A stretch of DNA of 64,000 nucleotides. Origin: an uncultured Clostridia bacterium (GTDB taxonomy: Bacteria; Bacillota; Clostridia; Christensenellales; Pumilibacteraceae). The position numbers were made by a program, and so were the translations under genes. Positions 5,121-20,580 of this stretch are shown here, in pieces; positions within the stretch are counted from its first letter, which is position 1; every line of letters starts with the position of its first letter. The stretch lies in assembly GCA_947089425.1 (NCBI GenBank), contig CAMUKG010000004.1:1-64000 (forward strand), written 5' to 3'. The notes under the pieces were generated by a model that had not been told where the DNA came from, did not search any database, and saw nothing but the letters and a program-made list of their open reading frames with translations.

Positions 5121-5149
5121 TTGAAATTTTGCGCATTATATAGTATAAT
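5121..5149 (+). promoter_or_regulatory. Promoter for the 1474-aa lipoprotein gene
   Basis: TTGAAA (5121-5126), 17 bases, then TATAAT (5144-5149). Any start upstream of about 5157 would be untranscribed, which favours the ATG at 5238. Confidence 0.8.
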
Positions 5150-5237
5150 AGAAAAAATAAGCCGAGCGGTGCCCGAAAGTTTTCCTGTATTATTGCAGGA
5201 ACTTTTTATAACGGAGCGCCGTTCAACGGAGCGAAGC

Positions 5238-8200
5238 ATGAAGAAAATTTATGTTACGATTTTGGCGGCAATTTGCGCGGCGTGCGTCGGGCTTGCGCTT
5301 GGATGCGAGTCGGCGAAAGAGCCCGACTACTATAAACTGACGTTTAAAGAGACCGACGGTATAACTTATACGAGCGAAATCATGTCGGGCGCCGAAGTGC
5401 GTTCGGGCTACGAAGTTCGTTTTAAAGTGAAATTCGACGAAGAGAATTTTACGGGAGAACTCGCCGTTAAAGCTAACGGCGAAGCTCTCGAACCTAATTC
5501 GGACGGCGATTATTCTTTTGTAATGACCGAAGACACTGTTGTGGAAGTCGACGGAATATATCCCATTGCGCGCTATTCGGTAACGTTCGAAGAGGGGGCG
5601 TTCCGCACTCGCTACACTACACCGAGCGGCGAACCGCTGTCGGGCGAGGTGAACGTTACGGCAGGCGAATCGATTAGCTTTAAAGTGGTGCAAAGCGTGT
5701 ATTATGTGGGCGACAGGACTGTGGTTGCGAACACGCAAATACTCGAACCTGACAATAGCGGCGTTTATACTGTGTCGGTTACCGAAAAAATAAGGATAGG
5801 GGTTCAAAATCTCGTTATAGACGACCCGTTTTACCGCCGACCTAATTGCGGAAACGGCACAGCCGCTAATCCGTATAAAATTTCGCGCCCTATCGATTTG
5901 TATTCTCTTGCCGACTTAGTGAACGCCGGTTTTTATACGGACGTTAAGTATGCGTATTACGAGCTTACCGAAGACATCGATATGCGCGGCGAACAGCTTT
6001 ATATAATCGGCGACGCTACTACCGACACCGCGTTTTTTTCGGGGCATTTCAACGGCAACGGACATAAGATTTCCAACTATTTTATAGAAGACACCATAAT
6101 TGAGCAAGAATCGTTTACCGAAGTGTTTTTGCCTTACGTCGGTTTGTTCGGTTACGTTATGGCGTCGCCTTACGGAGCCGCCGAAATAAGAAATCTTACG
6201 CTTGAAGATTTTGATTTGCATATAGACAGTTCGGTTTTTAACGGTAACGCACTCGCAGGCGGCATAGCGGGATTCGGCATGGGGTTGGAGCTCACGGGGT
6301 GCTCGATAAGCGGCAACATAACCGTTGCGGCAAACGACAAAAAGAATACCGACACGGGAGAATACAACTATACTTATGTTGGAGGCGTCGCGGGCGTTTT
6401 GCAACCTTACGTTGCAGAAAATTTCGTGTTATCTTCGTCGGTTCGCTCGTGCGCGTCGGGCGTGAATATAACCGTGCAATCGGGCAACGTTTTCGGAGCG
6501 GGCGGAATTGTTGCCTATCTTATATCCGCCGACCGACAAGTTCCGTCGTATGTTGTGAATTCGTATTCTAGGGGCAACATAGAGGGCGCCATTCGCGCGG
6601 GCGGCATTGCGGGCACCGCTTCCGCTAACACGGCTGTTATGAATTGCTACTCGCTCGGAAAAATTGCGGCGCACACCGCTCTTTCCACATCGGGAAACGA
6701 TACCACTGAGGGCTATTCGTATGCTGGCGGAATAGCGGGGTATCTCGGGTGCAATTCGGCGATTACTCATAGCTTTTCTACGGGCGAAATTACGGCTACC
6801 ACCGTAAATTCCAAACGTTACGCGCTTAGCGACGCGATTGCGGCGGCGTTTGAAAAAGGCAAGGTTTCGTCGGTTAGCGAACTCGATTCGTATGCGTTCG
6901 TTTGTTTCGGCAAGCAAGGCGAGCAAATAAGCAAAGAATTTTATACCGACGTTTTGAAGTGGACCTCAACCGACTGGAAGTTCGACGGGGACTATCCCCA
7001 AATAAATTTCGAGAGCACTACGGCGGAATTCACCGTTACGCTCGAATTTACGGGCGAAGGCGTTTCGGGCGAGCTTTCGGTGCCAATGAAAGACACTTAT
7101 CTTCCTATGGCATATTGGAATTTTGCCGACGACGGCATTCCCGAATTTATTTCGCGTGATAATATGCGCTCTTACGGCTACTTTTTCGACGCCGAGTTGA
7201 CTAAGGCGGTGCCGTATGCTTTCGTTCCTACGTGCGATATAACGCTCTATGCGGGCTTTGCCGACTATTCCGAAGTCGAGGGGACGTATTTCATTCAAGA
7301 CGGAAGCGGAAATGCCGCAAGCATAGCTCTTGCTGTCGACGGAACGCTTTCGTACCGTAGCGGCGCCAAAACGCATTCGTCGTATTACACCTATAACGGC
7401 GAAAAAATCTTGCTATATAACACTGTGCTCGGCAGTCATGCCCATGCGGGATATAACGGAATAGACGATTTCGAAGCTACGTTTGTTAACGGTTCGAGCG
7501 ACGTGCTTGCCTTAAAAGATATTTATATGCACTTAAATTCTTCGTACAGACCGTTGACGGCGGTGAAAAAGCCGAACGGTTTCGTTTACGGCGAATATTA
7601 CACGAACGACACGAGCTATTCCTTTTATTCCGACGGCACCGGCGTTAAAACCGAACTCGGAGACAATCCTATCAAAGAGGCGTTTATGTACGTCGTTTTG
7701 TCGGGCAAGGTTCAAATTCGCACCGAGAGCGGAGCGGAATTCGAAGCTACGCTCGCTTCCGACGGAACTATTCAAAGCATCGAAGACATTTCGGTAAAAA
7801 GACTCGATGAGTTTGTTGGAACGTGGGAAAAGTCTGCGTCCGTTTTAAAGAGTTATACGTTTGACGGCAAAGGCAAATGGGAATATAAATACTACGGCTA
7901 CGGTGCGGACGGCGCGGAGCAAATTAAAGATTCGGCTTCGGGCACATATACGGTAAGCGGCGGCATAGCTACATTAAACGACGGCAAAAAAGCGCAATTC
8001 ACGCAAGACGGTTTTGTGGAAATTGACGGCGAACTGTTTTTTGCCGACAACAGCTATGCGGGAACGTGGATGAACAACTCGGACGGGCTTTTGGAAATTA
8101 CGCTGAGCGGCATAGGCAAAAACGGCTACGGCGAAGCGAAAGTCGATTTCGGAAGCAGTTATCCCGAGTATGACGTGACATACGAGGCGAAAGCCGACGG

Positions 8201-9662
8201 CACGATTTCGTTGTTTTACGGCAGTTCCGCTTTCGGAACGCTTAAATATTCGGCAACCGACAAAACGCTTTCGGGCAGTATGTTTTCGGCGTTTACCGAT
8301 ACTGTGAAAACTGATATGAAGCTGTTTTTGTACGACGGCTTTAAAGGGTATTGGGTTTCGAACGATACCGATTTTCTTTCGGTGGAGTTTAACGGGCTCG
8401 GCAACTATAATGCGGAGGGCAACGAAAGTCACCTTGCTGTGAGAGGTAACGTGATCGTTTGCGGCGAGAACGCGGGGAAATATTCGATTGAAAACGGAAC
8501 GCTCGTCGGTTCGTTTACTTTCAAAGGCACCGATTATGCGCTCGCATACGACGAAAAACAAGAAACCGTTACGATTACGGGCGGCGGGAAAAACGTTGTG
8601 CTTCTTTTGCGCGACGGTTGGTTCGGCTACGACTTAATAGACGATGCGGGGAACGTTTATTCGTTTGACGGAAGAGGTAGCATACAGGGCGGTGACGGCG
8701 GAGAAATAAAAGTTACGGGCGCCGATGCCAAAACATATCGCTACAAAATAGCGACCGACGGTAATGTTACGGTCAGCTACGGCGGACAAAACGGAACGCT
8801 TACGGTTAACTCTTCGGATAATTGTTACGTTCTTGCGCTCGGCGGCGTTTCGGTTAATTTGTATGTTCGCAACGACTTCGGCGGCGAATGGCTTATAGGG
8901 AAAACGGACGGTAAAACTCTCACGGTGGGGAAGATAGGCGCCGACGGTACGGCTTCGGGCGCTTTCTGCGGCGAAAACGTACAATACAAATATGAGCGCG
9001 ACACCAAAGAACTTTCGTTTGAATATCAAGGAAATGAGGGAAAACTTTCCGCGCATACCGCAAAACTCGAATCGGGCGCAACGGTTTGCGAACTTAGGTT
9101 CGAGCTCGGCTCCGACGAAGGAATTTGCGTTCGCAGAGAAAACGTCGATTCGTTTATGGGAACTTACACAGCCGAAAATTCCGCACTGTTGCTCGACGGA
9201 CTCAGCGCGTCGTATTTCGGAAACGGCACGGCCGTTTTGGATAAAGGCGGGCAAACGCTCACGGTGTATTATGCCGTGAACGAACGCGGGCAGGTTGTGC
9301 TCAGCGACAGCGGCAGGGTGCTTTACGTATTCGAGCAAGACGCGAGCGGCGAATATAAAAAAGACGGCAAAAGCTATAAGCTTTCTAAGCCGTTTACGTT
9401 CCTATATAACCGCGTGACATACGGGGTAACTGCGGGCAAACCCGATAAAACCAAAGTTTATGTTTTTGACGGGGTGAGCAAGGTGTACGACGCGCAAGGC
9501 AAGCTTGCGTATACGTATGTGATGCTCGACCAAACGGAACAGGATAAGCTTGATTTGATTTTGCGCTTTGTGTTTACCGATTCGAAAGGAAAGAAGTACG
9601 ACGCGCAACTCGATTACGGCAGTACCGATTACACTTTGAAAATATTCGAAATAGCGGGATAA
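5238..9662 (+). CDS. Large multidomain surface lipoprotein
   Basis: This 1474-residue protein has a lipoprotein signal with Cys23 (GLALGC) as the likely lipidation site. After two beta-rich modules (about 30-190), residues 195-565 form a repeat region of the GLUG/right-handed-helix kind: the pattern 'GGIAG' recurs with phrases such as FSGHFNGNGHKISNY and SFSTGEI. An InlB-type module follows (about 590-680, ending DITLYAGF). The rest is a chain of roughly 100-residue beta modules, several starting like FVGTWE, YAGTWM, FKGYWV or FMGTYT, resembling lipocalin-like 'GTW' repeats. It is exposed on the outer face of the membrane and may bind polysaccharide or protein, which is inference. The start is ATG with ACGGAG just upstream. 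It is transcribed alone. Confidence 0.75.
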   Translation: MKKIYVTILAAICAACVGLALGCESAKEPDYYKLTFKETDGITYTSEIMSGAEVRSGYEVRFKVKFDEENFTGELAVKANGEALEPNSDGDYSFVMTEDTVVEVDGIYPIARYSVTFEEGAFRTRYTTPSGEPLSGEVNVTAGESISFKVVQSVYYVGDRTVVANTQILEPDNSGVYTVSVTEKIRIGVQNLVIDDPFYRRPNCGNGTAANPYKISRPIDLYSLADLVNAGFYTDVKYAYYELTEDIDMRGEQLYIIGDATTDTAFFSGHFNGNGHKISNYFIEDTIIEQESFTEVFLPYVGLFGYVMASPYGAAEIRNLTLEDFDLHIDSSVFNGNALAGGIAGFGMGLELTGCSISGNITVAANDKKNTDTGEYNYTYVGGVAGVLQPYVAENFVLSSSVRSCASGVNITVQSGNVFGAGGIVAYLISADRQVPSYVVNSYSRGNIEGAIRAGGIAGTASANTAVMNCYSLGKIAAHTALSTSGNDTTEGYSYAGGIAGYLGCNSAITHSFSTGEITATTVNSKRYALSDAIAAAFEKGKVSSVSELDSYAFVCFGKQGEQISKEFYTDVLKWTSTDWKFDGDYPQINFESTTAEFTVTLEFTGEGVSGELSVPMKDTYLPMAYWNFADDGIPEFISRDNMRSYGYFFDAELTKAVPYAFVPTCDITLYAGFADYSEVEGTYFIQDGSGNAASIALAVDGTLSYRSGAKTHSSYYTYNGEKILLYNTVLGSHAHAGYNGIDDFEATFVNGSSDVLALKDIYMHLNSSYRPLTAVKKPNGFVYGEYYTNDTSYSFYSDGTGVKTELGDNPIKEAFMYVVLSGKVQIRTESGAEFEATLASDGTIQSIEDISVKRLDEFVGTWEKSASVLKSYTFDGKGKWEYKYYGYGADGAEQIKDSASGTYTVSGGIATLNDGKKAQFTQDGFVEIDGELFFADNSYAGTWMNNSDGLLEITLSGIGKNGYGEAKVDFGSSYPEYDVTYEAKADGTISLFYGSSAFGTLKYSATDKTLSGSMFSAFTDTVKTDMKLFLYDGFKGYWVSNDTDFLSVEFNGLGNYNAEGNESHLAVRGNVIVCGENAGKYSIENGTLVGSFTFKGTDYALAYDEKQETVTITGGGKNVVLLLRDGWFGYDLIDDAGNVYSFDGRGSIQGGDGGEIKVTGADAKTYRYKIATDGNVTVSYGGQNGTLTVNSSDNCYVLALGGVSVNLYVRNDFGGEWLIGKTDGKTLTVGKIGADGTASGAFCGENVQYKYERDTKELSFEYQGNEGKLSAHTAKLESGATVCELRFELGSDEGICVRRENVDSFMGTYTAENSALLLDGLSASYFGNGTAVLDKGGQTLTVYYAVNERGQVVLSDSGRVLYVFEQDASGEYKKDGKSYKLSKPFTFLYNRVTYGVTAGKPDKTKVYVFDGVSKVYDAQGKLAYTYVMLDQTEQDKLDLILRFVFTDSKGKKYDAQLDYGSTDYTLKIFEIAG

Positions 9663-9786: not shown

Positions 9787-11061
9787 TTAAATATTTTTAA
9801 TCATAAGCCTTATAATTTCTTCGTCGGTTTCTTTCATGCCAATGCGGGCAAGGTCGCAAACGTTTTCGATTGTGTTCTCAACGCCGCGCTCCAAAATGCC
9901 GTCGCCGCCGAAAAATTGGCTTCCGTTTTTATACATTTCCATTCCGAGCAATCCCGCGTCTACCGATGCGGCTATCTTTGCGGCGCAACTCGATTTTGCG
10001 CCGTCGCAAATCAGTCCCGAAGTTACGGCGAGGGCGTTCACAATCGTGTGCGCTATTTCGTCGTATTTGCCGCCGTGCAAGTAGCACACTCCCGCGCCCG
10101 CACCCGCGCCCGCGCTAACCGCTCCGCAATATGCCGAAAGTCGACCTATACCCGTTTTTAAGTGCACCGTTATAAGGTTTGAGAGCGCAAGCGCGCGAAT
10201 AAGCATGTCGCGCGAGCAACCGATCTCTTCGGCATAAACTATAACGGGGAGCGACGCCGTGAGCCCTTGATTGCCGCTTCCCGAAACTATAACTACGGGA
10301 AGGGCGCACCCGTTCATTCGCGCGTCGCTGCCTGCCGCCGCAAACGCCTTAGCTCTGTTGAAAACCGAATCGCCGCGAGCGGCAAGAAGTATTTTTCCCA
10401 CGCGCGCGCCGTAGTCGTTTTTAAGCCCTTCTCGTGCGATTGCTAGGTTGCAGTCTATTTGTCTTTCGATTACCTCTTGCACGTCGGTAACGTTTAAACG
10501 GTCGGCAAATTCCACAATGTTCTTAACGGTTAAAACGGTTCTGTCGGTAAAGCCGCCGTCGCTTTCGGCGGGATTGTTTTCGCCGCCTATGCGCACGCCG
10601 TTTTTTTCTATGCTCACCACGTTGGTGTGATGCCCCGCAATGCGCACGCTTGCGCTTTCGCCGTCTGTGAAAACGCTAACCGTTATATCGAACGCGCAAC
10701 CCGATTGCGATTGCTTAACTTCGAAATTTACCGTTTTCAAATATTCGACTATTTTTTTGCGCTCGGCGTCGGATAGGTAAGATAGCACTTTAAGCTTGTT
10801 TTGGGGATTGCCCGCAACTATTCCCGCAGCGGCGGCTGATGCGATTCCTTTCAGTCCGCCCGTGTTTGGCACGATTACGCTTTTTACGTTTTTAAGAATG
10901 TTCCCGCTCACGAGCAGTTGCGCGCGGTTTGGAAGAGCGCCCAGCGTGTTGCGAGCGAGCGCGGCGGCATAGGCTACCGCAATCGGCTCTGTGCAGCCTG
11001 TTGCTGGCAAAAGTTCTTCGTTTAGTATTTTTACGTATTGAGAGTATAACGATTCGTTCAT
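9787..11061 (-). CDS. L-cysteine desulfidase / UPF0597 family enzyme
   Basis: This 424-residue cytosolic protein belongs to the CyuA/YhaM (UPF0597, serine dehydratase alpha-like) family, whose studied members use a [4Fe-4S] cluster to break L-cysteine into sulfide, pyruvate and ammonia. The family's N-terminal LLPATGCTEPIAVAYA is seen at about residues 18-33. Further conserved cysteines lie in GCALP, GCSRD, LICDGAKSSCAAK and near the C-terminus. The start at 11061 is chosen because AAGGA sits 7 bases upstream; an ATG 45 bases earlier lacks a site. It is a single gene facing away from the redox operon that starts at 11226. The exact substrate (cysteine or serine) is not proven by sequence. Confidence 0.85.
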   Translation of the reverse strand: MNESLYSQYVKILNEELLPATGCTEPIAVAYAAALARNTLGALPNRAQLLVSGNILKNVKSVIVPNTGGLKGIASAAAAGIVAGNPQNKLKVLSYLSDAERKKIVEYLKTVNFEVKQSQSGCAFDITVSVFTDGESASVRIAGHHTNVVSIEKNGVRIGGENNPAESDGGFTDRTVLTVKNIVEFADRLNVTDVQEVIERQIDCNLAIAREGLKNDYGARVGKILLAARGDSVFNRAKAFAAAGSDARMNGCALPVVIVSGSGNQGLTASLPVIVYAEEIGCSRDMLIRALALSNLITVHLKTGIGRLSAYCGAVSAGAGAGAGVCYLHGGKYDEIAHTIVNALAVTSGLICDGAKSSCAAKIAASVDAGLLGMEMYKNGSQFFGGDGILERGVENTIENVCDLARIGMKETDEEIIRLMIKNI

Positions 11062-11190
11062 TTGTAAGTCCTTAGGCGTATTATGCGTATGTGCGAATAT
11101 GCGCAACGATAAAATCGCTTTTATTCAGCATACATTTTCTTTGCCGTTATGTCAAGCGAATAGAGCGCGCTCGTTCGGACTTTAAATCGC

Positions 11191-11225: not shown

Positions 11226-12128
11226 ATGACTGAAAAGACTCGAAAAACCATATTGCTCGCCTACGGAGCGGTGCTCGGAGCGTTTACCGTTACGGTGGGG
11301 GCGTTGCTTATTTGGCAGGTGCTCTCGCTGTATTTCGCGGGAAAGGCGAGTGCGGGCGGGCAAATATTTTCGCGCGCGAACGTGAGCGCCGCGCTCGGCA
11401 AAATAGCGCCCGCGCTGTGGTTGTGGCTTGCGCTCGCGGCAATAGGTTTCGGAGTGGGGGCAGCGTTTCAAACGTCTCGAAAAGCGGCGCGGCAAGACGT
11501 GCGTTACACTCTTTACAGGCTTAAAAATCGGCTCCCCAAATCGGGCGCAACGCCGCAAGGAGCGCTCGGCGAGGCGGCAAAAAGCGTGCGGCGCGAGGAA
11601 ACCGTCCTCAAAATTTTGTGGCTTTGTTGCGGCGCTGTGGCGCTCGCAAGCGCTGTGTATGCTGTGGTATATCTTGCGAACCCCGCGCACTTTCCGTCGC
11701 GCGTATCAAAAGAGAACGTTACAGCCGAAATGCTCGATATGGTTAAGCGTTTTATTCCGTGCGTTACGTGGACGTTTTTATTCGCGTGCTGTATAGGAAT
11801 TTACGAACGCCTTTCGGCAAAAAAACAGTTGCCCGAAGTTAAGAAGCTCTCGGCGGCGTATAAGAGCGGCGAAATCGTTTCGGAGATGAATGGACAAGCT
11901 CCGCAAGGATTTGGCGCCAAGCTCGAAGCAAAGGCGCAAAACAATAAGTTTTTTACGTTTTTAAGCAAAGCTTTTAACTTTTTCCGCAGATACGGAAAAA
12001 CGGTTGCACGCGCGGCAACGGGTTGTTTTGCAGTCGCGTTTATCATAGCGGGAATTTTTAACGACGGCGCGCGCGATGTGCTAATTAAAGCGGTGAATAT
12101 ATGCACGGAGTGTATCGGACTTGGCTAA
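11226..12128 (+). CDS. Membrane protein with CD1871A-like C-terminal CXXC motif
   Basis: This 300-residue integral membrane protein has hydrophobic segments at about 10-36, 62-82, 131-151 and 178-196, with a last one near 265-285. The extreme C-terminus, ICTECIGLG (Cys293, Cys296), matches the signature of the short CD1871A family of CXXC membrane proteins in Clostridia, here on a much longer N-terminal part. The next gene overlaps by 8 bases and encodes an Fe-S/thioredoxin fusion, so the CXXC pair may pass reducing equivalents across the membrane. The start appears leaderless: ATG coincides with the predicted transcription start and no Shine-Dalgarno exists. The N-terminal region is of no family I know. 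Confidence 0.7.
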   Translation: MTEKTRKTILLAYGAVLGAFTVTVGALLIWQVLSLYFAGKASAGGQIFSRANVSAALGKIAPALWLWLALAAIGFGVGAAFQTSRKAARQDVRYTLYRLKNRLPKSGATPQGALGEAAKSVRREETVLKILWLCCGAVALASAVYAVVYLANPAHFPSRVSKENVTAEMLDMVKRFIPCVTWTFLFACCIGIYERLSAKKQLPEVKKLSAAYKSGEIVSEMNGQAPQGFGAKLEAKAQNNKFFTFLSKAFNFFRRYGKTVARAATGCFAVAFIIAGIFNDGARDVLIKAVNICTECIGLG

Positions 12129-13800
12129 GGTAAAGAATGTTTTTAAAAAAATAGGCGGGTGGTTTGTTCGTCACGCGCCCACCAAACGCCGACTGATTCA
12201 AATTTATTCCGCGCTTCTCTTTAACGCGAATCTAAAAGGATATTTCGGCAAAGGCAACAACGTTATTTTTCGCGGAGTCACAAAATATTTGTGCACGCCC
12301 GGACTTAATTGCTATTCGTGTCCGGGAGCGGTGACGGCGTGCCCGCTCGGCGCGCTTCAAAACGCTATGGCGGCGTCTAAAACGCGCGCGCCGTATTACA
12401 TAATAGGAATACTGTGCTTGCTCGGGCTAATGTTCGGAAGAACGATTTGCGGCTTTTTGTGCCCTACGGGGCTCGGGCAAGATTTGCTTTATAAAATCAA
12501 AACGCCCAAATTGCGCAAGAGCAGGTTTACCCGCATTTTTTCGTATTTTAAATATGTTTTGCTTGCGGTGCTCGTAATAGCTATTCCGGTTATTTATCAA
12601 GGCATACCGGCGTTTTGCAAATACGTCTGTCCTGCGGGAACGTTCGGCGGTTCGCTGTTTTTGCTCATGAACCCGAACAACGCCGACTTTTTTTCAATGC
12701 TCGGATATTTGTTCAGTTGGAAATTTGTGTTGCTTGTAGTTTTCGTTGTTGCGAGCGTGTTTATTTACCGATTTTTCTGCCGCTTCTTTTGCCCGCTCGG
12801 TGCAATTCTCGGCTTTTTCAATAAGTTCGCGTTTATCGGCGTGAGTCTCGACAACGGGAAATGCACCGATTGCGGACTTTGCGTGCAAACTTGCAAAATG
12901 GACGTGAAACGCGTTGGAGACCACGAGTGCATAAACTGCGGCGAATGTATTCCCGTTTGCCCCACGAAAGCAATAGGGTGGAAGGGCGCGAAATTGTTTT
13001 TGCACCCGTCGGCAACCGACGATTTGCCTATTCCCGCCGTAGAGCGCGCGCCGCTTGCGGCTATGGCGGCTGAAACTTCGGCTGTGCAAAATTCCGCTTC
13101 GGCTAATTTGAGTCTTTTCGAAAGCGGCGCGAGCGAGGCAACCGACGCAATAAACGCGCAAGCGCAAAATTCCGCATCGGAAAATAAAGAAAAAAATAGA
13201 CAACTTACTCCCGACGAAAAAAGATTAAAACGCAATTTCGGCTTGCAGATAGGCGCTTGGGCGCTTGCACTCGTGCTTCTAATAACGGCGCTCGTGTATT
13301 ATAACTTTTTGGCGCCCTCAAATGTAACGCGGGTTTACGCTCTCGGCGACAAATGCCCCGACTTTGCGCTATCAACTTACGATACGCAAGGAGCGTATTC
13401 GGGCGGCGTAAAGACGGATAAATTTTCGTCGCTCGAATATAAAGGCACAGTTACCGTAATTAACTTTTGGTATACCACTTGCGACCCGTGTGTGGAAGAA
13501 CTTCCGTATTTCGAGAGCGTTAAAGAAAAGTTTGGCGATAAAGTTGTTATGGTTGCGGTGCACGCCGCGAACATGGCGAGCGAGAGCGAGGTGCAAGGCT
13601 TTATAAACGGCAAGGGTTGGCGCGATTGGCAAATAATTTTCGCGCAAGACACCTCCGAAACAGATTGCTTCACCATGCTCGGCGGAAAGAGCGCCTATCC
13701 GTTAACCGTTGTGGTGAATACTTCGGGCGTAATATCTTTTGTGCAACAAGGCAAAACGAGCGAAGCGGCTCTCACTGAGGCGATAGAGAACGCAATGTGA
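12121..13800 (+). CDS. Polyferredoxin membrane protein fused to TlpA-like thioredoxin
   Basis: The product has 559 residues. The N-terminal half resembles NapH/NosR/RdxA-type membrane ferredoxins: four or five hydrophobic segments between residues 90 and 240 with cysteine pairs CYSCPG, CGFLCPTG, CKYVCPAG and CRFFCPLG, then two 4Fe-4S motifs (CTDCGLCVQTC and CINCGECIPVC) at about 244-285. An Ala/Ser-rich linker leads to a TM segment (about 378-398) and a C-terminal thioredoxin domain with CDPC (Cys454, Cys457). This order suggests cytosolic electrons pass through Fe-S centres to an outward-facing thioredoxin. The start is TTG at 12121 with GGAG at 12107-12110, overlapping the upstream gene. 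Such a fusion is uncommon; separate proteins are usual. Confidence 0.8.
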   Translation: MAKVKNVFKKIGGWFVRHAPTKRRLIQIYSALLFNANLKGYFGKGNNVIFRGVTKYLCTPGLNCYSCPGAVTACPLGALQNAMAASKTRAPYYIIGILCLLGLMFGRTICGFLCPTGLGQDLLYKIKTPKLRKSRFTRIFSYFKYVLLAVLVIAIPVIYQGIPAFCKYVCPAGTFGGSLFLLMNPNNADFFSMLGYLFSWKFVLLVVFVVASVFIYRFFCRFFCPLGAILGFFNKFAFIGVSLDNGKCTDCGLCVQTCKMDVKRVGDHECINCGECIPVCPTKAIGWKGAKLFLHPSATDDLPIPAVERAPLAAMAAETSAVQNSASANLSLFESGASEATDAINAQAQNSASENKEKNRQLTPDEKRLKRNFGLQIGAWALALVLLITALVYYNFLAPSNVTRVYALGDKCPDFALSTYDTQGAYSGGVKTDKFSSLEYKGTVTVINFWYTTCDPCVEELPYFESVKEKFGDKVVMVAVHAANMASESEVQGFINGKGWRDWQIIFAQDTSETDCFTMLGGKSAYPLTVVVNTSGVISFVQQGKTSEAALTEAIENAM

Positions 13801-13875
13801 GCGGTTAAGATTGCTTCGATAGGCTCGCGGTTACATTGTTTGGAGGGGAGAGGTCCTTTAAGAATACGCGGATAA

Positions 13876-13906
13876 GAAAAAGCGCTCGAATGGTCGAGCG
13901 CTTTTT
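13876..13906. terminator. Bidirectional terminator
   Basis: AAAAAGCGCTCGA pairs with TCGAGCGCTTTTT around ATGG. The A-run on the left gives a T-run on the minus strand, so it serves both the polyferredoxin operon and the convergent lipoprotein operon. Confidence 0.9.
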
Positions 13907-13926
13907 GCGTGAGTTATTTTTTGTTT

Positions 13927-16419
13927 TTATTCTTGTGCGGCTACTTCTGTGAAAAAAAGATAGAACGATTCGTCCCACTGGCTATCGGCTGCAACGGTTA
14001 TTTCCGCATCTGTGTTAATTTGAGCGGTTACGGTGTAATCGTTTTCGCCGTTAAGCGTATAGTCGATTCCGCTTATTGTAATAGTTATGGTGGATCGACG
14101 GCTAAACTGCATTCCGTCTATTTTGATTGTGTAAGTTCCCGTTTCTCCGCCGAATTTCATTGTAATGGGTGAATGAACGCTTATGTTGCTTATTTCATTT
14201 CCGTTTTCACCCACTATGAATTTGGGCGCTTCCGCGCTTTCCAAAGTGAACAAATAATCTTTCGCAATTTCCGCATTTATGTAAATTTCAACTTCTTTGT
14301 TCGCTTCGAAGTAAATGGGCGCGCCTACGATATTTCCGTTCTCGTCGGGTTCGTATGTGTCGTTGAAATCAAACAAAGCACCTTCAAAACCTTTTACTAT
14401 GGACAAAAGTCCGTCAATGTCATTTTCCGAAATAACTACTCTGTAATAACCGCTTTTTTCGGGCGTGAAGAAGAATGTGCGTTCTGTCTCGGCTTCGTCA
14501 ATAGTAACATTATTTAAACCTACGCCAATATACGGTTCGGAACCAGGTGACGTTTTAAACACCGTTAAATTGTACTCGGCGGCTTCAAGCCATGAGTATC
14601 CGCAGTAGAACGAGAACGTTTCGCCCGCTTTCAATTCGAATTCATATGTGCCCGAGAAGACGAATTCATCGTCTTCGTTTTCTTTTTCGCCTATTATGGG
14701 GTTATTCGCGTCGGTCGTCCAAATCAAGGCTTTGTCGTCGGTTGCCGTAAGTCTGAATTTTCCGCCGCTTTGCGATTTTACGGTGTAAAGCTTTCCGTCA
14801 TATGCTTCGCTTTTTGTAAGCGATATTGTGCGCATACCGGTAGCGAGAATAACTCCCGTTCCGGCTACCGTGTTCGAGCCGAAATATTTGCAGGGAATGA
14901 GCCAGTTCGGCGCGGTAAGCGATTGAATTCCCAAAAAGGAATTGCTCATGTATTCGAGGAACGTTTTCAGCTCTTCGTTCACGGGATACATTCCGTAGCT
15001 GTTGGCGGCAAGGTCGGCATAACCTTTAATTTCTTTGGTCTCGCCGTCGTCGGCTAATTTGCCGTTTATAAATTCGATATAGTCGAACTTTATATACGGG
15101 TTGTCTTTTGACGGAAATTGATACGCCTGTATTCCTCTGTCGGTTTGTTGGTCGTATTTATTGAGCGCTATATCGCTTGCTCTCGTTGCTTTGGTAAGCA
15201 CAGCATAGAGAATAGGTCCGCTTTCGGTTCCCACATGGTAATAACCGTCGGAACCGAGCGCTACCGCTACGGAGCCGTCGTATTTGATTTCCATAAGACT
15301 GTCGCCTTCGGTTCTGTTTTCAGCAATTTTCGCGTCCGTCCACTCTACGGGATTGCCTGTGGGACGCAACGTTTGGAGCGTAACTTGTTGTTCTTCTTCT
15401 ACGTCGTCTGTGCGGGTTACTGAAACGGTTACGGCACAGTCTTTATCTGCTTTAACTCCGAAGTAAGAATCTTGACCCGCTTCGCTTTTTTTGAGTTCGA
15501 GCGAAATTGTGCCGTTGCCGGTGTAAATTTCCGAGTCGGTGGCGCTATCGGGAGCTTCGCCTGTTATGGCATAAGCATAAGCGGGGATTTTGTTTTCGTC
15601 AAACACAGTACTCGCTTTCGAAGCTATGTAATATATCATAGTGACGTTTGCATCGCTTTCGGTAGTGAACGAAAGAGCGTATTTTCCGCTTGCCGCAAGT
15701 CGCGCGTTATTCGTCACAGTATCGAGTTCTTCCGAACCGCTCATTCTCGGCGGTACATACGGATTGAAGTTGAAATACTCTATTATGCCGGATTTAACGT
15801 TTAAAACCAAATCGTTTCCGCTTTCAGTGAAAGTATCGTTTTTCGATTCGTCTTTTCCCGCATAGGCGCGTTTATATGAATGTCCTTGCGTAAGCGAGCC
15901 CGGAAACTTATTAGGGTAGAAGTCAAACACAGCCGCCGCAGTTCTTTCGGAATCGAAAACGAGAGAAGTTTTTGTGTCGTTAAAGTCGATTTCATAATGA
16001 TAATCGCAAGCGGGGTCGGTGTCATTTTCGCCGGACGCGGCAACTCGCGCTCTGTATGTGGCGCCTTCTTCGGGCTTGAATTCGAACGTTGCGATTCCGT
16101 TTGCGTCGGTGCTTGCTTTGCTCTCAACCGTAAGTCCCGATTTGTTTTGCTCGTCTTCGAAATAGTAGGCTTCGAACCAAACGTTTGCAATAGCGGCGGC
16201 TTGTTTGTCTTTCGCCGAAACGGTATATGTTTGCTTTACGGGTTCGGGGTCTTTGTCGTCGTCGGGGTCTTTGTCGTCGGGCGGCGTTTCCTGTTCGTTT
16301 CCGCCGCTCGGGGTATTGCCGTCGTTATCCGGATTTGCGGGCGTATCCTTGCATGCGAACAAGAACAGCATGCACAAACATAGAATAAAAGGCAGAATTT
16401 TTTGCAACACTTTTTTCAT
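13927..16419 (-). CDS. Large secreted lipoprotein with Cna-B-like N-terminal domain
   Basis: The product has 830 residues. A lipoprotein signal ends at FLFAC (Cys23), followed by a Pro/Asp/Gly-rich tether (25-60). Residues 62-130 look like a carboxypeptidase-regulatory/Cna-B-like beta sandwich (YTVSAKDKQAAAIANVWFEA, TDANGIATFEF). The remainder is beta-rich. A segment with GSDGYYHVGTESGPILYAVL resembles a segment of the thioredoxin lipoprotein at 17035-19875 (TDGYYHAVTETFDYGSKVYI), so the two share an extracellular module. AAGGAG precedes the ATG at good spacing. It lies 21 bases behind a small lipoprotein gene, in one operon from the promoter at 16958. No enzymatic motif is recognised. Confidence 0.75.
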   Translation of the reverse strand: MKKVLQKILPFILCLCMLFLFACKDTPANPDNDGNTPSGGNEQETPPDDKDPDDDKDPEPVKQTYTVSAKDKQAAAIANVWFEAYYFEDEQNKSGLTVESKASTDANGIATFEFKPEEGATYRARVAASGENDTDPACDYHYEIDFNDTKTSLVFDSERTAAAVFDFYPNKFPGSLTQGHSYKRAYAGKDESKNDTFTESGNDLVLNVKSGIIEYFNFNPYVPPRMSGSEELDTVTNNARLAASGKYALSFTTESDANVTMIYYIASKASTVFDENKIPAYAYAITGEAPDSATDSEIYTGNGTISLELKKSEAGQDSYFGVKADKDCAVTVSVTRTDDVEEEQQVTLQTLRPTGNPVEWTDAKIAENRTEGDSLMEIKYDGSVAVALGSDGYYHVGTESGPILYAVLTKATRASDIALNKYDQQTDRGIQAYQFPSKDNPYIKFDYIEFINGKLADDGETKEIKGYADLAANSYGMYPVNEELKTFLEYMSNSFLGIQSLTAPNWLIPCKYFGSNTVAGTGVILATGMRTISLTKSEAYDGKLYTVKSQSGGKFRLTATDDKALIWTTDANNPIIGEKENEDDEFVFSGTYEFELKAGETFSFYCGYSWLEAAEYNLTVFKTSPGSEPYIGVGLNNVTIDEAETERTFFFTPEKSGYYRVVISENDIDGLLSIVKGFEGALFDFNDTYEPDENGNIVGAPIYFEANKEVEIYINAEIAKDYLFTLESAEAPKFIVGENGNEISNISVHSPITMKFGGETGTYTIKIDGMQFSRRSTITITISGIDYTLNGENDYTVTAQINTDAEITVAADSQWDESFYLFFTEVAAQE

Positions 16420-16440
16420 GTTTGTATTCTCCTTAAAAAT

Positions 16441-16854
16441 TTAATTCTTGGTAATAGTGATTGTTATCGAACCGTAAGCCGTAAAATAAAGAGTTTCGGC
16501 ATTTGCGTCGTAACTATAACCGTCGGGCAACTTGTTGAGTTTAACGTGGAATTTTTCACCGCTTTTAAGAGCCACGGTGTCGTCGGTTGTGAAATTGCAT
16601 GTTCCGTCTGCTCCGACTTTTTTGGGCAAAAAGCAAGTTCCTTCTTCGCCCGCCGCATTCACGTGGCAAAGCTGAACGGTTGTGTCAACCTTTGTGCCGT
16701 CTACCGCAGTGCCGTCTGAATACACGAGCTTAACGGTGTAAGCGTCGGCCGTGGTTTTGTCGTCGTCGCCGCACGCCGCCGCAAACATGCCGAAGCAAAG
16801 CACTACGAGTGCAAGCGATAGAACGGTTGCGAGTTTTTTTGCGATTTTTTTCAT
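16441..16854 (-). CDS. Small lipoprotein, single Cna-B-like domain
   Basis: The product has 137 residues with a clear lipobox, FAAAC (Cys28). After an acidic DDDK tether, the rest fits one carboxypeptidase-regulatory/Cna-B-like domain (AYTVKLVYSDGTAVDGTKV, then ADGTCNFTTDD and SITITI at the end), the same kind of module as at the start of the 830- and 946-residue lipoproteins. Two cysteines (QLCHV, GTCFL) plus one in DGTCNF remain in the mature part, so a disulfide is possible. AGGAGG lies just upstream of the start. It is the first gene of a two-gene operon. Its function is unknown. Confidence 0.75.
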   Translation of the reverse strand: MKKIAKKLATVLSLALVVLCFGMFAAACGDDDKTTADAYTVKLVYSDGTAVDGTKVDTTVQLCHVNAAGEEGTCFLPKKVGADGTCNFTTDDTVALKSGEKFHVKLNKLPDGYSYDANAETLYFTAYGSITITITKN

Positions 16855-16957
16855 GGATAAAATCCTCCTGAATTAAAAAATTTTTATATTTATATAAGAA
16901 AACGGCACCACAACAAATAAGGTCACGACGCCGCTGTCTTCTAATAAAGTTTTTATA

Positions 16958-16986
16958 ATTTTATCATATAAGGAAAAAAGAGTCAA
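16958..16986 (-). promoter_or_regulatory. Promoter of the two-lipoprotein operon
   Basis: On the minus strand TTGACT (16986-16981) is followed after 17 bases by TAAAAT (16963-16958). Confidence 0.75.
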
Positions 16987-17034
16987 GCGAAAAATGACGG
17001 TTCTTGCTGCTCCCTTGCTCGCAAGGAAACAAAA

Positions 17035-19875
17035 CTATTCCCCTATGTGCAAATAGTAGCACGCGAACATCAGCCAGCCGTTTGCGGTGGGTTTGTCGCC
17101 GTAGGTGTAATAAATTTGACGGTTAAGAATGTGCACGAGTCCCGCGTCGGCTTCGAGCATTCCGTAAAGCTCGTCGTTCGGATTTTTGCCTTGCACCGAC
17201 TTATAGTAGTAGGCAAGCAGCTCTTGCGTGTAGTCCTTGTCGCCAAACGCTCTGAAATTGAAGCGTCCTCCGCGAATTAAATCGTAAAGCGAATTATCGT
17301 TTGAGTCGAAGAAGTTGGGGCGGAGAAAGTCGATATACACTTTCGAGCCGTAATCGAAAGTTTCCGTTACGGCATGATAGTATCCGTCGGTGGGGCTGAG
17401 GGCAACGTTTATTCCGTTATACGACCCGTTGGGATGCCATGTTCCGTATCCCGTAGAGCAAATTCTGAGATACTCGTAAGACGTAACGCCCAAAGCTTTT
17501 ATATTCATTCTGAATTTGCCTTTAAACGCTTGGGGGTCGGCGAGACTTGGCTGAATATAGTATGTCTCGCCTTCGTTGAGCAATATATATGCGTTAAAAT
17601 GCTCGTTGTCTTTGGCGTAGCTGTTTGCCCCCTTTATAAAGTGGTCGTAGCTTTCGTCGTTGTTGTTGTATAAAAGCGAATTTCCGTCGGCGTCGTAAAT
17701 CGTTACGTCGGGGTCCGCCGTGCTGTCGCCCGTAACGTATTCGGAGTAAAATTGATAAACGCTTGTTGTTGCGGGAACGAATTTATACCACAATCCGCCG
17801 CCGTTGTGTTTTATTCCTTTTACTATGTCTACCACTACGGAGTCGTCGGAAATTTTGAGTTCATAAGCGTTGTTGCGAGAAAGTCCTTTCACGGGGTCGT
17901 TAGTCGTTTGGCAAACGCCGCCGAGTTCTTTGTTGCCGTGATGCTTATAGTAAAAGCACATTTCAAGCCACTGGTCGGCATAATACGGTTGTTCGTTTTG
18001 CTTGCAATATTCTTTCGCAAAAGCGTCGAGAGCGACTTTGATTTTTTCGTTAACGGGCAAAAGTTCGTTGTCGGAATACGGCTGCAAATAATATGCGTCT
18101 ATAATGTTTGCCGTGTGTTCGGCGCCGTAATCGAACAGAAGGGAAATTTTGTCCGACACCTTTTCGTAGTTGGACATAGTCCAGTACGAAAGATGATAGA
18201 GCGACGAATTGGTCAAAGTGCCGGTAGGCGAAGTGAACTTTTTGTCTAACGAGCGCTTTTCGCCCCAATAAGTGTAGTTCAAAATATCGGTGAGAAGAAG
18301 AGAGCGAACGGTTTCGTTGTTTTCGTTGACGTATTCCACCATGTAATATATTCCGTCGTTTCCGTCCTCTCCCGGTGCAAGCAGTTTAAGACCGTAGTTC
18401 ACACCGTTTGATTGCAAACCGTTCGTTGCCGCAACAAGTTGGTCGAACGTGTCCGTGTTGTCGCCTATGTCGGTGATTTCTATGTTGCGTATGCAAGCCA
18501 AATCTTCGCCGTCGTCTTTTTCGGGGTCTTTAAGATAGAGGAACGACAGCGACACGGTTTCGTCGCGGTTAGCCACATACACGCCGTATTCTTTTTTCCA
18601 ACCCTCGCTGTTGCCGCTGTATTGCCCCACAATATCTTTGTCGATTTGAACGAAAAGCACGTCGTTGCCAGACTCGGTGTCTACGCTGTATTCGTAGGAA
18701 AGCACGTCGCCGCTTTTAAGCGCAATGTCGCAATACATGATTGCGAACGAGAACGGCACTTTTGTGTTTGACGCGTAAACGTATTTGCCGTCGTCGTCCT
18801 CGCCTATAAAGAAAGGGAACGATCTATCTTTGTCTTTTTCGTTGGTTTCGGGGTGGAAGTTAGAGACTTTGCCCGCCGCGCCTTTTCCCAAAATCGCCGC
18901 TTCAATTTGCGCTGACTCGGGCTGCGTAAGCGAGGGGTCGGGCTTTGTGTAGTCGGCGGGCTTATCGGGGGTGTCGTCGCCCGACGGCGCTTGTTGAATG
19001 TAATCGTCGGCGGTGTATTTGTTGAACATTGCTTTCCAAGTGGATTCGAGAGGAATAGAACCCGATTCGATATGCGCTACCACTCCGTAGCGGTCTATAA
19101 TTACACTGGTGGGGAACGCTTTCACACTGAAAAGGTTTGTTACTCCCGCCGCGTCGTTCGCCATGTGGAACGACAGTCCGCGTTCTTCTTTAAAGTTTTT
19201 TATTTCTTCGGCGTTGTCTTGCGCGGATAGGGCGATAATTCCCACTTTGTCGGCATAAGCCTCGTATGCCTTTTGAATTGCGGGGAATTCCGACTGGCAA
19301 GGGTTGCAAGCTTTGTACCAAAAGTTGACGAGCACTGCCTTTTTTGAGGAAAGCACGCCCGAGAGAGTGTGGCGGTTGTCGTCGGTTGCGGTAAAGCCGA
19401 AGTCGTGCATTACGTCGCCGAGCGAATAGCGAGTGTCCGCGCTCGCTGTGGTGGAAATAACCGAAGAAGGCAAAATCACTTTTGCGTTGCGGCTTTCGGC
19501 TGAAGTTTTAAACGTCGTGCCGTCGGGAACGAAGTAGCCTGCCGGCAAAGAGCTTTCTTCGGGAACTAGGGTGTATTCGTCGGCGGCGAGCGAAAGCTCG
19601 ATTATTCCGTCTTTCGAAATGCCCGACGCGACCGAATTGCCGTCTTTTTTCGCCGTTATGCGCACTCCGTTTAGCGGAAGTCCGCCCGCCGAAACTACCG
19701 AAATCGAATATTTGCCTCCTACGGGGTCGTCGGGGTTGCCCGGCTTTTCTGCGGAAACGGGGTTTTTGAACGCGGGATATTCGGAAGCGTTTACGCAACC
19801 GGTGAGCGCAAACCCCAAGCATAACGTTAGAACGAGCAATATTGCGGTAAGGCTTGGTTTCTTTGTTCTTTTCAT
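17035..19875 (-). CDS. Thioredoxin-domain (TlpA-like) lipoprotein, multidomain
   Basis: The product has 946 residues. The lipobox is LTGC (Cys27). Residues 52-140 form a carboxypeptidase-regulatory-like domain (YSISVVSAGGLPLNGVRITA). Residues 150-290 form a TlpA/ResA-like thioredoxin with the active site CNPC at 190-193, the family's VLVNFWYKACNPCQSEFP context and a cis-proline region AFPTSVIIDRYG. The remaining 650 residues are beta-rich and hold a module shared with the 830-residue lipoprotein. It probably reduces or isomerises disulfides outside the membrane, accepting electrons from the thioredoxin fusion encoded at 12121, which is inference from context. GAGGA precedes the ATG, and it has its own promoter at 19945. 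The large C-terminal part is unassigned. Confidence 0.8.
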   Translation of the reverse strand: MKRTKKPSLTAILLVLTLCLGFALTGCVNASEYPAFKNPVSAEKPGNPDDPVGGKYSISVVSAGGLPLNGVRITAKKDGNSVASGISKDGIIELSLAADEYTLVPEESSLPAGYFVPDGTTFKTSAESRNAKVILPSSVISTTASADTRYSLGDVMHDFGFTATDDNRHTLSGVLSSKKAVLVNFWYKACNPCQSEFPAIQKAYEAYADKVGIIALSAQDNAEEIKNFKEERGLSFHMANDAAGVTNLFSVKAFPTSVIIDRYGVVAHIESGSIPLESTWKAMFNKYTADDYIQQAPSGDDTPDKPADYTKPDPSLTQPESAQIEAAILGKGAAGKVSNFHPETNEKDKDRSFPFFIGEDDDGKYVYASNTKVPFSFAIMYCDIALKSGDVLSYEYSVDTESGNDVLFVQIDKDIVGQYSGNSEGWKKEYGVYVANRDETVSLSFLYLKDPEKDDGEDLACIRNIEITDIGDNTDTFDQLVAATNGLQSNGVNYGLKLLAPGEDGNDGIYYMVEYVNENNETVRSLLLTDILNYTYWGEKRSLDKKFTSPTGTLTNSSLYHLSYWTMSNYEKVSDKISLLFDYGAEHTANIIDAYYLQPYSDNELLPVNEKIKVALDAFAKEYCKQNEQPYYADQWLEMCFYYKHHGNKELGGVCQTTNDPVKGLSRNNAYELKISDDSVVVDIVKGIKHNGGGLWYKFVPATTSVYQFYSEYVTGDSTADPDVTIYDADGNSLLYNNNDESYDHFIKGANSYAKDNEHFNAYILLNEGETYYIQPSLADPQAFKGKFRMNIKALGVTSYEYLRICSTGYGTWHPNGSYNGINVALSPTDGYYHAVTETFDYGSKVYIDFLRPNFFDSNDNSLYDLIRGGRFNFRAFGDKDYTQELLAYYYKSVQGKNPNDELYGMLEADAGLVHILNRQIYYTYGDKPTANGWLMFACYYLHIGE

Positions 19876-20140: not shown

Positions 20141-20389
20141 CTATTTTTCCACGAATTCGCAAATACAGTTGCGCGAGTTTTCGCAACTACGGAGTTTTTC
20201 GCCGCAGTCGCAACCGCTTTCGCAAAGACACTTATATTCGCTTACGAGGCAATCGAGGTCGCTCAAGATATCGGCGGCAATTTCGGCGTCGGTAAGGCGC
20301 ACGCTGTTGCGCGCTTCTTTGGTGCAACCGCAAGCGCAGTCGCGCGAAGTTTGCGAGTTTTTGTTTTTACCGAAAAAATTGAATTTCAT
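20141..20389 (-). CDS. Cysteine-rich miniprotein 2
   Basis: The product has 82 residues with ten cysteines in two clusters: CACGC near residue 17 and CLCESGCDCGEKLRSC...CIC in the last 30. The start at 20389 is set by AAAGGAG a few bases upstream; longer in-frame starts lack a site and would overlap the previous gene. The spacing of CxC and CxxC pairs suggests metal binding or a disulfide-knotted fold. There is no signal peptide, so cytosolic metal binding is the simpler guess. It follows a second Cys-rich gene by 23 bases. I do not recognise a family. Confidence 0.7.
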   Translation of the reverse strand: MKFNFFGKNKNSQTSRDCACGCTKEARNSVRLTDAEIAADILSDLDCLVSEYKCLCESGCDCGEKLRSCENSRNCICEFVEK

Positions 20390-20412
20390 AATTTGTTTCT
20401 CCTTTTTTAAAA

Positions 20413-20580
20413 TTAGTCGTTTTTGAGCTCGTCGCTCGAAATGCCCAAGCGCATGCGCGATTCGTTTGCGGCGTCGCCGAGCAATTTTCGGAGACAATCG
20501 CTACCGCATTCGCAAGCGTAGTTGCAGCACTTTTTGTAAACGAGCTTTTCTCTTTCGCGTACACTTTCCAATGATTTCAT
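20413..20580 (-). CDS. Cysteine-rich miniprotein 1
   Basis: This 55-residue ORF starts at ATG 20580 with a perfect AAAGGAG upstream and ends at TAA 20415-20413. The product is charged at both ends and has a central KKCCNYACECGSDC block with five cysteines in 13 residues. It lies immediately upstream of the 82-residue Cys-rich gene, and both have strong ribosome binding sites, so they are a tandem pair. The function is unknown; a small metal-binding protein or precursor peptide are both possible. Confidence 0.65.
   Translation of the reverse strand: MKSLESVREREKLVYKKCCNYACECGSDCLRKLLGDAANESRMRLGISSDELKND

Follow-up and report, generated by a model that had tools for sequence, protein, structure and literature searches.

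Many gut Clostridia carry no CcdA or DsbD above detection, which raises the question of how their extracytoplasmic thiols obtain reductant. A candidate answer is found at positions 11,226 to 19,875 of the window (the whole stretch of 64,000 nucleotides that was analysed, contig CAMUKG010000004.1) of an uncultured gut Clostridia bacterium of the family Pumilibacteraceae. The five genes considered here, P0001 to P0005, form two converging operons. The plus-strand operon consists of P0001 (11226-12128) and P0002 (12121-13800), which overlap by 8 bases, and it meets tail to tail the minus-strand operon composed, in gene order, of P0005 (17035-19875), P0004 (16441-16854) and P0003 (13927-16419). 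Promoter and terminator scans gave results at chance level only. A preliminary description of this DNA had named these genes, all of which were confirmed at their places, and had suggested a transmembrane electron path from cytosolic ferredoxin to surface thioredoxins that maintain or remodel neighbouring lipoproteins. This interpretation is partly supported by our analysis. The locus probably encodes a ferredoxin-driven relay that supplies extracytoplasmic thiols with reductant, as a functional counterpart of DsbD/CcdA. The gene set would be a variant of extracytoplasmic thiol reduction, and no description of the conserved set itself, nor any paper describing the CD1871A family, was found in the literature searched (mostly without subscription papers).

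The polyferredoxin-thioredoxin and CD1871A core

The core of the system is defined as the CD1871A-ended membrane protein P0001 and the polyferredoxin-thioredoxin fusion P0002. P0001 is a multi-spanning protein of 300 amino acids with about five transmembrane segments. Its residues 267-300 (12024-12125) match the CD1871A family NF040920 with 36.7 bits (curated cut-off of 32) and contain the CXXC motif CTEC. P0002, translated from a TTG start, was identified by Pfam and NCBIfam matches as a NapH-like membrane polyferredoxin fused to a TlpA/ResA-type thioredoxin. Its score with the NapH/MauN profile TIGR02163 (64.8 bits, 8e-18) is below the family cut-off of 213, indicating a related protein outside the family. 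Fer4 matches cover two CxxCxxCxxxC 4Fe-4S motifs (12862-12960), and a Redoxin domain with the active site CDPC (residues 409-547, 1.8e-13; domain 13333-13797, active site 13480-13491) follows the last transmembrane segment. The thioredoxin domains of the locus exceed the Pfam Redoxin/AhpC-TSA cut-offs; their best NCBIfam match is ResA, below its 170-bit cut-off. The topology of P0001 and P0002 was predicted from hydropathy and charge, the first transmembrane helix of P0002 being placed by hand from loop charges. According to this prediction, the two 4Fe-4S motifs are cytosolic, and the thioredoxin domain and the CTEC motif of P0001 are outside. In the alignment of 20 P0002 relatives, the eight Fer4 cysteines, the thioredoxin CxxC (C454, C457, together with P456) and the cysteines assigned to CX3CP motifs are all invariant. 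The last group lies partly near the inner face of the membrane (C110, C114, C220 and C224) and partly near its outer face (C58, C64, C67, C74, C166 and C170). The CX3CP cysteines may bind further clusters within the membrane.

Three samples were surveyed: 74 genomes of the same family as the host, 391 sampled genomes of the class Clostridia, and a scan of named genomes from which 80 loci were kept. The latter derive from Clostridia (gut metagenome bins, Lachnospiraceae, Oscillospiraceae and one Butyrivibrio isolate) and from one Acholeplasmatales bin. A full-length relative of P0002 is present in 24 of the 74 family genomes, and the CD1871A domain was detected in exactly those 24, adjacent and on one strand. 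Among the 80 named loci, the polyferredoxin and the thioredoxin form one protein in 79, and a CD1871A-ended gene is adjacent in 77. Across the class, CD1871A proteins occur in 71 of the 391 genomes and are mostly of about 50 amino acids. An unfused NapH-like polyferredoxin adjoins the small CD1871A protein in all 30 class loci examined, and a gene for a TlpA-type lipoprotein is usually also found beside this pair (of eight such TlpA-type genes scanned, seven encode 366 to 420 amino acids and one 195). The arrangement in the window is thus a fused form of a three-gene cluster that is more widespread. Co-occurrence in relatives, whose absence had been named beforehand as an outcome that would refute the preliminary description, was observed.

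The core and the CcdA/DsbD proteins tend to avoid each other. Not one of the 24 family genomes that have the core contains PF02683 (DsbD_TM/CcdA) over its cut-off, and the two family genomes where it was over the cut-off both lack the core. No PF02683 match was obtained in P0002 nor elsewhere in the genome of the window. At the level of the class, CD1871A and DsbD are found together in 22 of the 391 genomes where about 36 are expected (odds ratio 0.38, p 4e-4, uncorrected for kinship), which is a tendency and not an exclusion. The transmembrane path proposed in the preliminary description is thus supported by the predicted topology, by the invariant cysteines, by the conservation of the set and by the absence of CcdA/DsbD. 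This gene set could take the place of CcdA/DsbD, by which surface proteins are usually kept reduced.

The paired-cysteine domain and the large lipoproteins

The smallest lipoprotein, P0004 (137 amino acids), consists of a domain with two cysteines, Cys63 and Cys74, that are conserved in relatives with a spacing of 3 to about 11 residues. This pair had been overlooked in the preliminary description. In the AlphaFold2 model of the domain (predicted local distance difference test, pLDDT, of 87.7), Cys63 and Cys74 (codons 16633-16668) are predicted to lie on consecutive strands of one beta-hairpin with a short turn between them (strands E30-36 and E42-45 of the model). The fold is that of Cna-B/prealbumin domains, one match being 8bdw, the CnaB2 domain of Lactobacillus plantarum (Z 9.9, root mean square deviation 2.2 over 86 residues). 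P0004 itself gave no match with the SpaA profile; 29 of 56 rows of the paired-cysteine domain match PF17802 at E<=1 (best value 1.3e-6), and one relative, at the locus L257, passes the SpaA cut-off. A homology to the N-terminal domain of DsbD (nDsbD) had been expected, but the profile and fold searches gave Cna-B/prealbumin and nDsbD was not among the matches listed, so that the likeness claimed here is limited to the geometry of the cysteines and to the gene context. In a fragment of P0004, C34, C45 and G55 are invariant in the alignment A5; the rows of A5, like those of A3, were chosen for the cysteine pair, and their conserved cysteines are partly due to this selection.

A fairer test of the pair is a co-occurrence search in the 74 family genomes, with a check of the loci found. 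The domain was detected in 25 genomes, with the cysteine pair in every best match checked. It is present in 15 of the 16 high-quality genomes with the core and in none of the 27 without it (p 1e-10, without tree correction). For all family genomes, the values are 23 of 24 with the core against 2 of 50 without it, those two genomes being about 75% complete. The one core genome missed by the search (G025) has a weaker paired domain adjoining its core. The split between genomes with and without the core and the paired-cysteine domain occurs inside two genera, and shared ancestry of whole genera is therefore no explanation. In the named loci, the domain is located in the flanks of 40 of 80. It is fused to a thioredoxin lipoprotein beside the core in about a dozen of them (Lachnospiraceae/Oscillospiraceae), and in three it is joined directly to the polyferredoxin-thioredoxin as its C-terminal domain (L271:2989-4938, L291:5639-7531 and L295:2525-4396). 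In most genomes of the group g2, this domain has its equivalent at the N-terminus of the second large lipoprotein, and for this reason P0004 and P0003 look as if a single protein had been divided in two.

P0005 is a lipoprotein of 946 amino acids composed successively of a Cna-B-like domain, a thioredoxin domain, a further beta-rich region, a module, a PPC-fold domain and a second module. The thioredoxin domain (19021-19428; AhpC-TSA 1e-15), with the active site CNPC (19297-19308), best matches ResA (NF002854, 1.8e-22; PDB 4nmu, 1.1e-13). Between the modules, a Foldseek search identified a PPC/collagen-binding-domain fold (17494-17901, limits approximate; 3jqw, 2e-5, TMt 0.77). P0003 (830 amino acids) is the partner of P0005; in most relatives, a second large lipoprotein bearing the module likewise follows the thioredoxin lipoprotein. 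It had been claimed that all three lipoproteins start with a Cna-B-like domain. With a profile derived from P0004, this holds for P0004 and P0005 (residues 56-127, 19495-19710, 1.2e-13, without the cysteine pair), but the match of P0003 is weak (residues 64-151, 15967-16230, 1.2e-4).

The module with the sequence DGYYH, said to be shared by the two large lipoproteins, is real and comprises about 140 residues with the pattern ...DGYYH...PVNEEL...WLxxCxYY. There are two copies in P0005 (17935-18393, profile 4e-31, genome-wide 1.9e-21; and 17041-17424, profile 1.2e-21) and one in P0003 (14875-15288), and a search with the module profile gave only these three copies in the genome of the window. 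The second copy of P0005 and the conserved cysteine of WLxxC had not been noticed before. A profile trained only on copies from thioredoxin lipoproteins, and on no partner lipoproteins, recovers the module of P0003 at 7.4e-15; with BLASTP, single copies match weakly (E 0.004), the relation being visible only with profiles. Neither this module, nor P0003, nor P0004 taken alone corresponds to a family in Pfam or NCBIfam. The AlphaFold2 model covering the module is of moderate confidence (mean pLDDT 63), and its PDB matches come mainly from the central PPC part.

The module is present in 18 family genomes, of which 16 have the core (p 1e-8); the other two are a genome of 76% completeness and one in about 150 contigs with a contamination of 7%. 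The operon of the thioredoxin lipoprotein converges on the core also in G050, G005, G006 and G008, with a different domain make-up of the partner. In G265, which belongs to another family, the thioredoxin lipoprotein alone converges on the core, and the same divergent desulfidase gene (see below) is found on the other side. In some g2 genomes and in G265, a module lipoprotein is also located beside DUF58/VWA-like genes with no redox genes, and the module is consequently not redox-specific; it carries only one conserved cysteine. Module lipoproteins end apparent operons of this DUF58/VWA-like type at L179:6096-7559, L180:5420-6871, L181:5729-7141, L182:5705-7213 and L174:7903-9390 (the gene types were assigned by visual inspection of L179). 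Concerning other arrangements, G416, from another family, has an operon (L176:6656-14170) in which the genes of two thioredoxin lipoproteins accompany those of a module protein and of a protein resembling P0004. Shorter thioredoxin lipoproteins were observed at L118, L119, L120 and L121 (genomes G028 and G029), and at L119-L121 they follow or adjoin very large lipoprotein-like open reading frames (ORFs) of 1130 to 1717 amino acids; these four loci possibly represent a variant of the gene set without the module.

A putative ferredoxin-driven relay and its alternatives

From these elements, we infer a direction and an order of electron flow. Electrons would enter from cytosolic ferredoxin at the two 4Fe-4S clusters of P0002 and cross the membrane by way of the CX3CP cysteines on its two faces, which may hold further clusters. 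They would next reach the CDPC site of the outer thioredoxin domain, perhaps together with the CXXC that the CD1871A protein would have on the same side, and from there the CNPC site of the thioredoxin lipoprotein at the surface. The hairpin cysteine pair of the Cna-B-fold lipoprotein, placed much as the active-site pair is in nDsbD, would be the final acceptor or else the last step of the relay. The paired-cysteine domain of P0004 is likely a redox partner. The idea that the pathway serves the upkeep or remodelling of the lipoproteins is only partly supported, since the evidence points to this one domain of the smallest protein and not to lipoproteins in general.

Several observations weigh against this relay. 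It is deduced from sequences and models. Ferredoxin is only an assumed donor, because quinol is the electron source of NapH in nitrate reduction. In the class survey, the 22 genomes mentioned above have both CD1871A and DsbD, and no partner domain is seen nearby in 15 of the 42 named loci whose flanks are complete. In the genome G416 (85% complete), no polyferredoxin-thioredoxin or CD1871A match was found despite the presence of modules, of a paired-cysteine protein and of two thioredoxin lipoproteins. The fold of P0004 belongs to the Cna-B/prealbumin type, nDsbD being missing among the matches listed. Finally, a pair of cysteines at the surface can be a plain structural disulfide.

The last point leads to another explanation, in which the pair is a structural or corrected disulfide and the pathway is a general surface reductase or isomerase, similar to CcdA-Etrx or ResA, with P0004 as one client among several. 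A hairpin pair would make a stable cross-strand disulfide, the thioredoxin domains are of the ResA/TlpA type, and the class-wide form of the cluster has only the TlpA lipoprotein. However, the fusions of the paired-cysteine domain to the polyferredoxin-thioredoxin (L271, L291 and L295) and to the thioredoxin lipoprotein would be odd for a mere client, and its co-occurrence with the core is near one-to-one. We regard this explanation as unlikely, although less so than the two alternatives that follow.

It is rather improbable that electrons are sent outward for another purpose, the polyferredoxin and the surface thioredoxin disposing of them or sensing them (redox sensing, extracellular acceptors), with large lipoproteins that bind substrates through their Cna-B, PPC and module domains. 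The PPC fold of P0005, the modular nature of these surface lipoproteins and the module proteins ending DUF58/VWA operons without redox genes agree with such a function, but no haem or flavin carriers were seen among the genes of the locus and the outward redox sites found are all thiol pairs. The lipoproteins could also be unrelated surface adhesins placed by chance beside a redox operon. The thioredoxin lipoprotein and the core are indeed unlinked in several family genomes (e.g. G007, G011, G012 and G014), and G416 lacks the core. This explanation is strongly disfavoured, and we consider it very improbable, given the co-occurrence of both the module and the paired-cysteine domain with the core, the convergent linkage kept in another family and the fusions.

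Three other genes were noticed around the locus. A gene for an SDH_alpha protein (cysteine desulfidase-like; 9787-11106, minus strand; PF03313, 2.4e-60) is divergent from P0001. It is an occasional conserved neighbour of the core, found in G050, in G265 and in 6 of the 80 named loci, and a connection with the metabolism of cysteine or sulfide is conceivable. Upstream of P0005, a small cysteine-rich ORF (20141-20497, minus strand) likely begins at an internal ATG, giving about 82 amino acids, and has no family match. A very large lipoprotein-like ORF (5121-9662, plus strand), with a lipobox after an internal ATG near 5241 and weak GLUG and X25 matches, is conserved in G050.

Comparison with known systems

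If the ferredoxin-driven relay is correct, the state of surface thiols would be tied directly to ferredoxin of low potential, the principal electron carrier in fermentation, and there would be a second, independent way of reducing thiols across a membrane. The analysis provides testable partners for the CD1871A family, so far uncharacterised, and for its polyferredoxin and TlpA neighbours, and it suggests that a Cna-B-type fold, more familiar from pilins, may have a redox function. CcdA, DsbD, TlpA and ferredoxin all go unmentioned in a survey of the disulfide enzymes of clostridia from 2025.

Compared with the known families, P0002 resembles NapH/MauN in its membrane location, its CX3CP motifs and its pair of C-terminal 4Fe-4S motifs, but it differs by its score below the family cut-off, its extra conserved cysteines and its fused thioredoxin. 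No Nap or Mau genes were noticed beside P0002, the neighbours not having been searched for them. The typical CD1871A protein has about 50 amino acids, whereas P0001 has 300 and is multi-spanning. The P0004 domain and its relatives share the fold and the profile match of Cna-B/SpaA domains, but they have a conserved hairpin cysteine pair and belong to redox loci, not to pilins.

The DsbD protein of Escherichia coli (alpha Ig-like, beta membrane and gamma thioredoxin domains; Ig, immunoglobulin) has a comparable organization: a membrane carrier, an outward thioredoxin and an outward beta-sandwich with a hairpin cysteine pair. In nDsbD, the pair C103/C109 is located on opposite strands of a hairpin (PMC7347389). 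In three relatives of the present system, the membrane part, the thioredoxin and the paired-cysteine domain are even in one polypeptide. The differences are that the membrane protein is a NapH-like polyferredoxin and not DsbD_TM, that the donor is likely ferredoxin and not a cytosolic thioredoxin, that the paired-cysteine domain has the Cna-B/prealbumin fold and that a CD1871A protein is added. More tentatively than for the relay itself, the system may be a convergent DsbD, complete in itself and proper to anaerobic Clostridia, in which an Fe-S polyferredoxin takes the place of the membrane domain, ferredoxin that of the thioredoxin donor and a redox-active cysteine pair acquired by a Cna-B-fold domain that of the N-terminal domain.

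The nearest studied parallel is CcdA-Etrx-MsrAB2 of Streptococcus pneumoniae (PMC3914529), where surface lipoproteins of the thioredoxin fold in a Gram-positive bacterium are fed by a membrane protein and reduce a membrane-anchored surface partner. By analogy, this parallel suggests a role in the repair of surface proteins, although the scan of thioredoxin proteins revealed no Msr domain. In the present system, CcdA would be replaced by the polyferredoxin and the CD1871A protein, and the partner would be a paired-cysteine Cna-B-fold lipoprotein instead of MsrAB.

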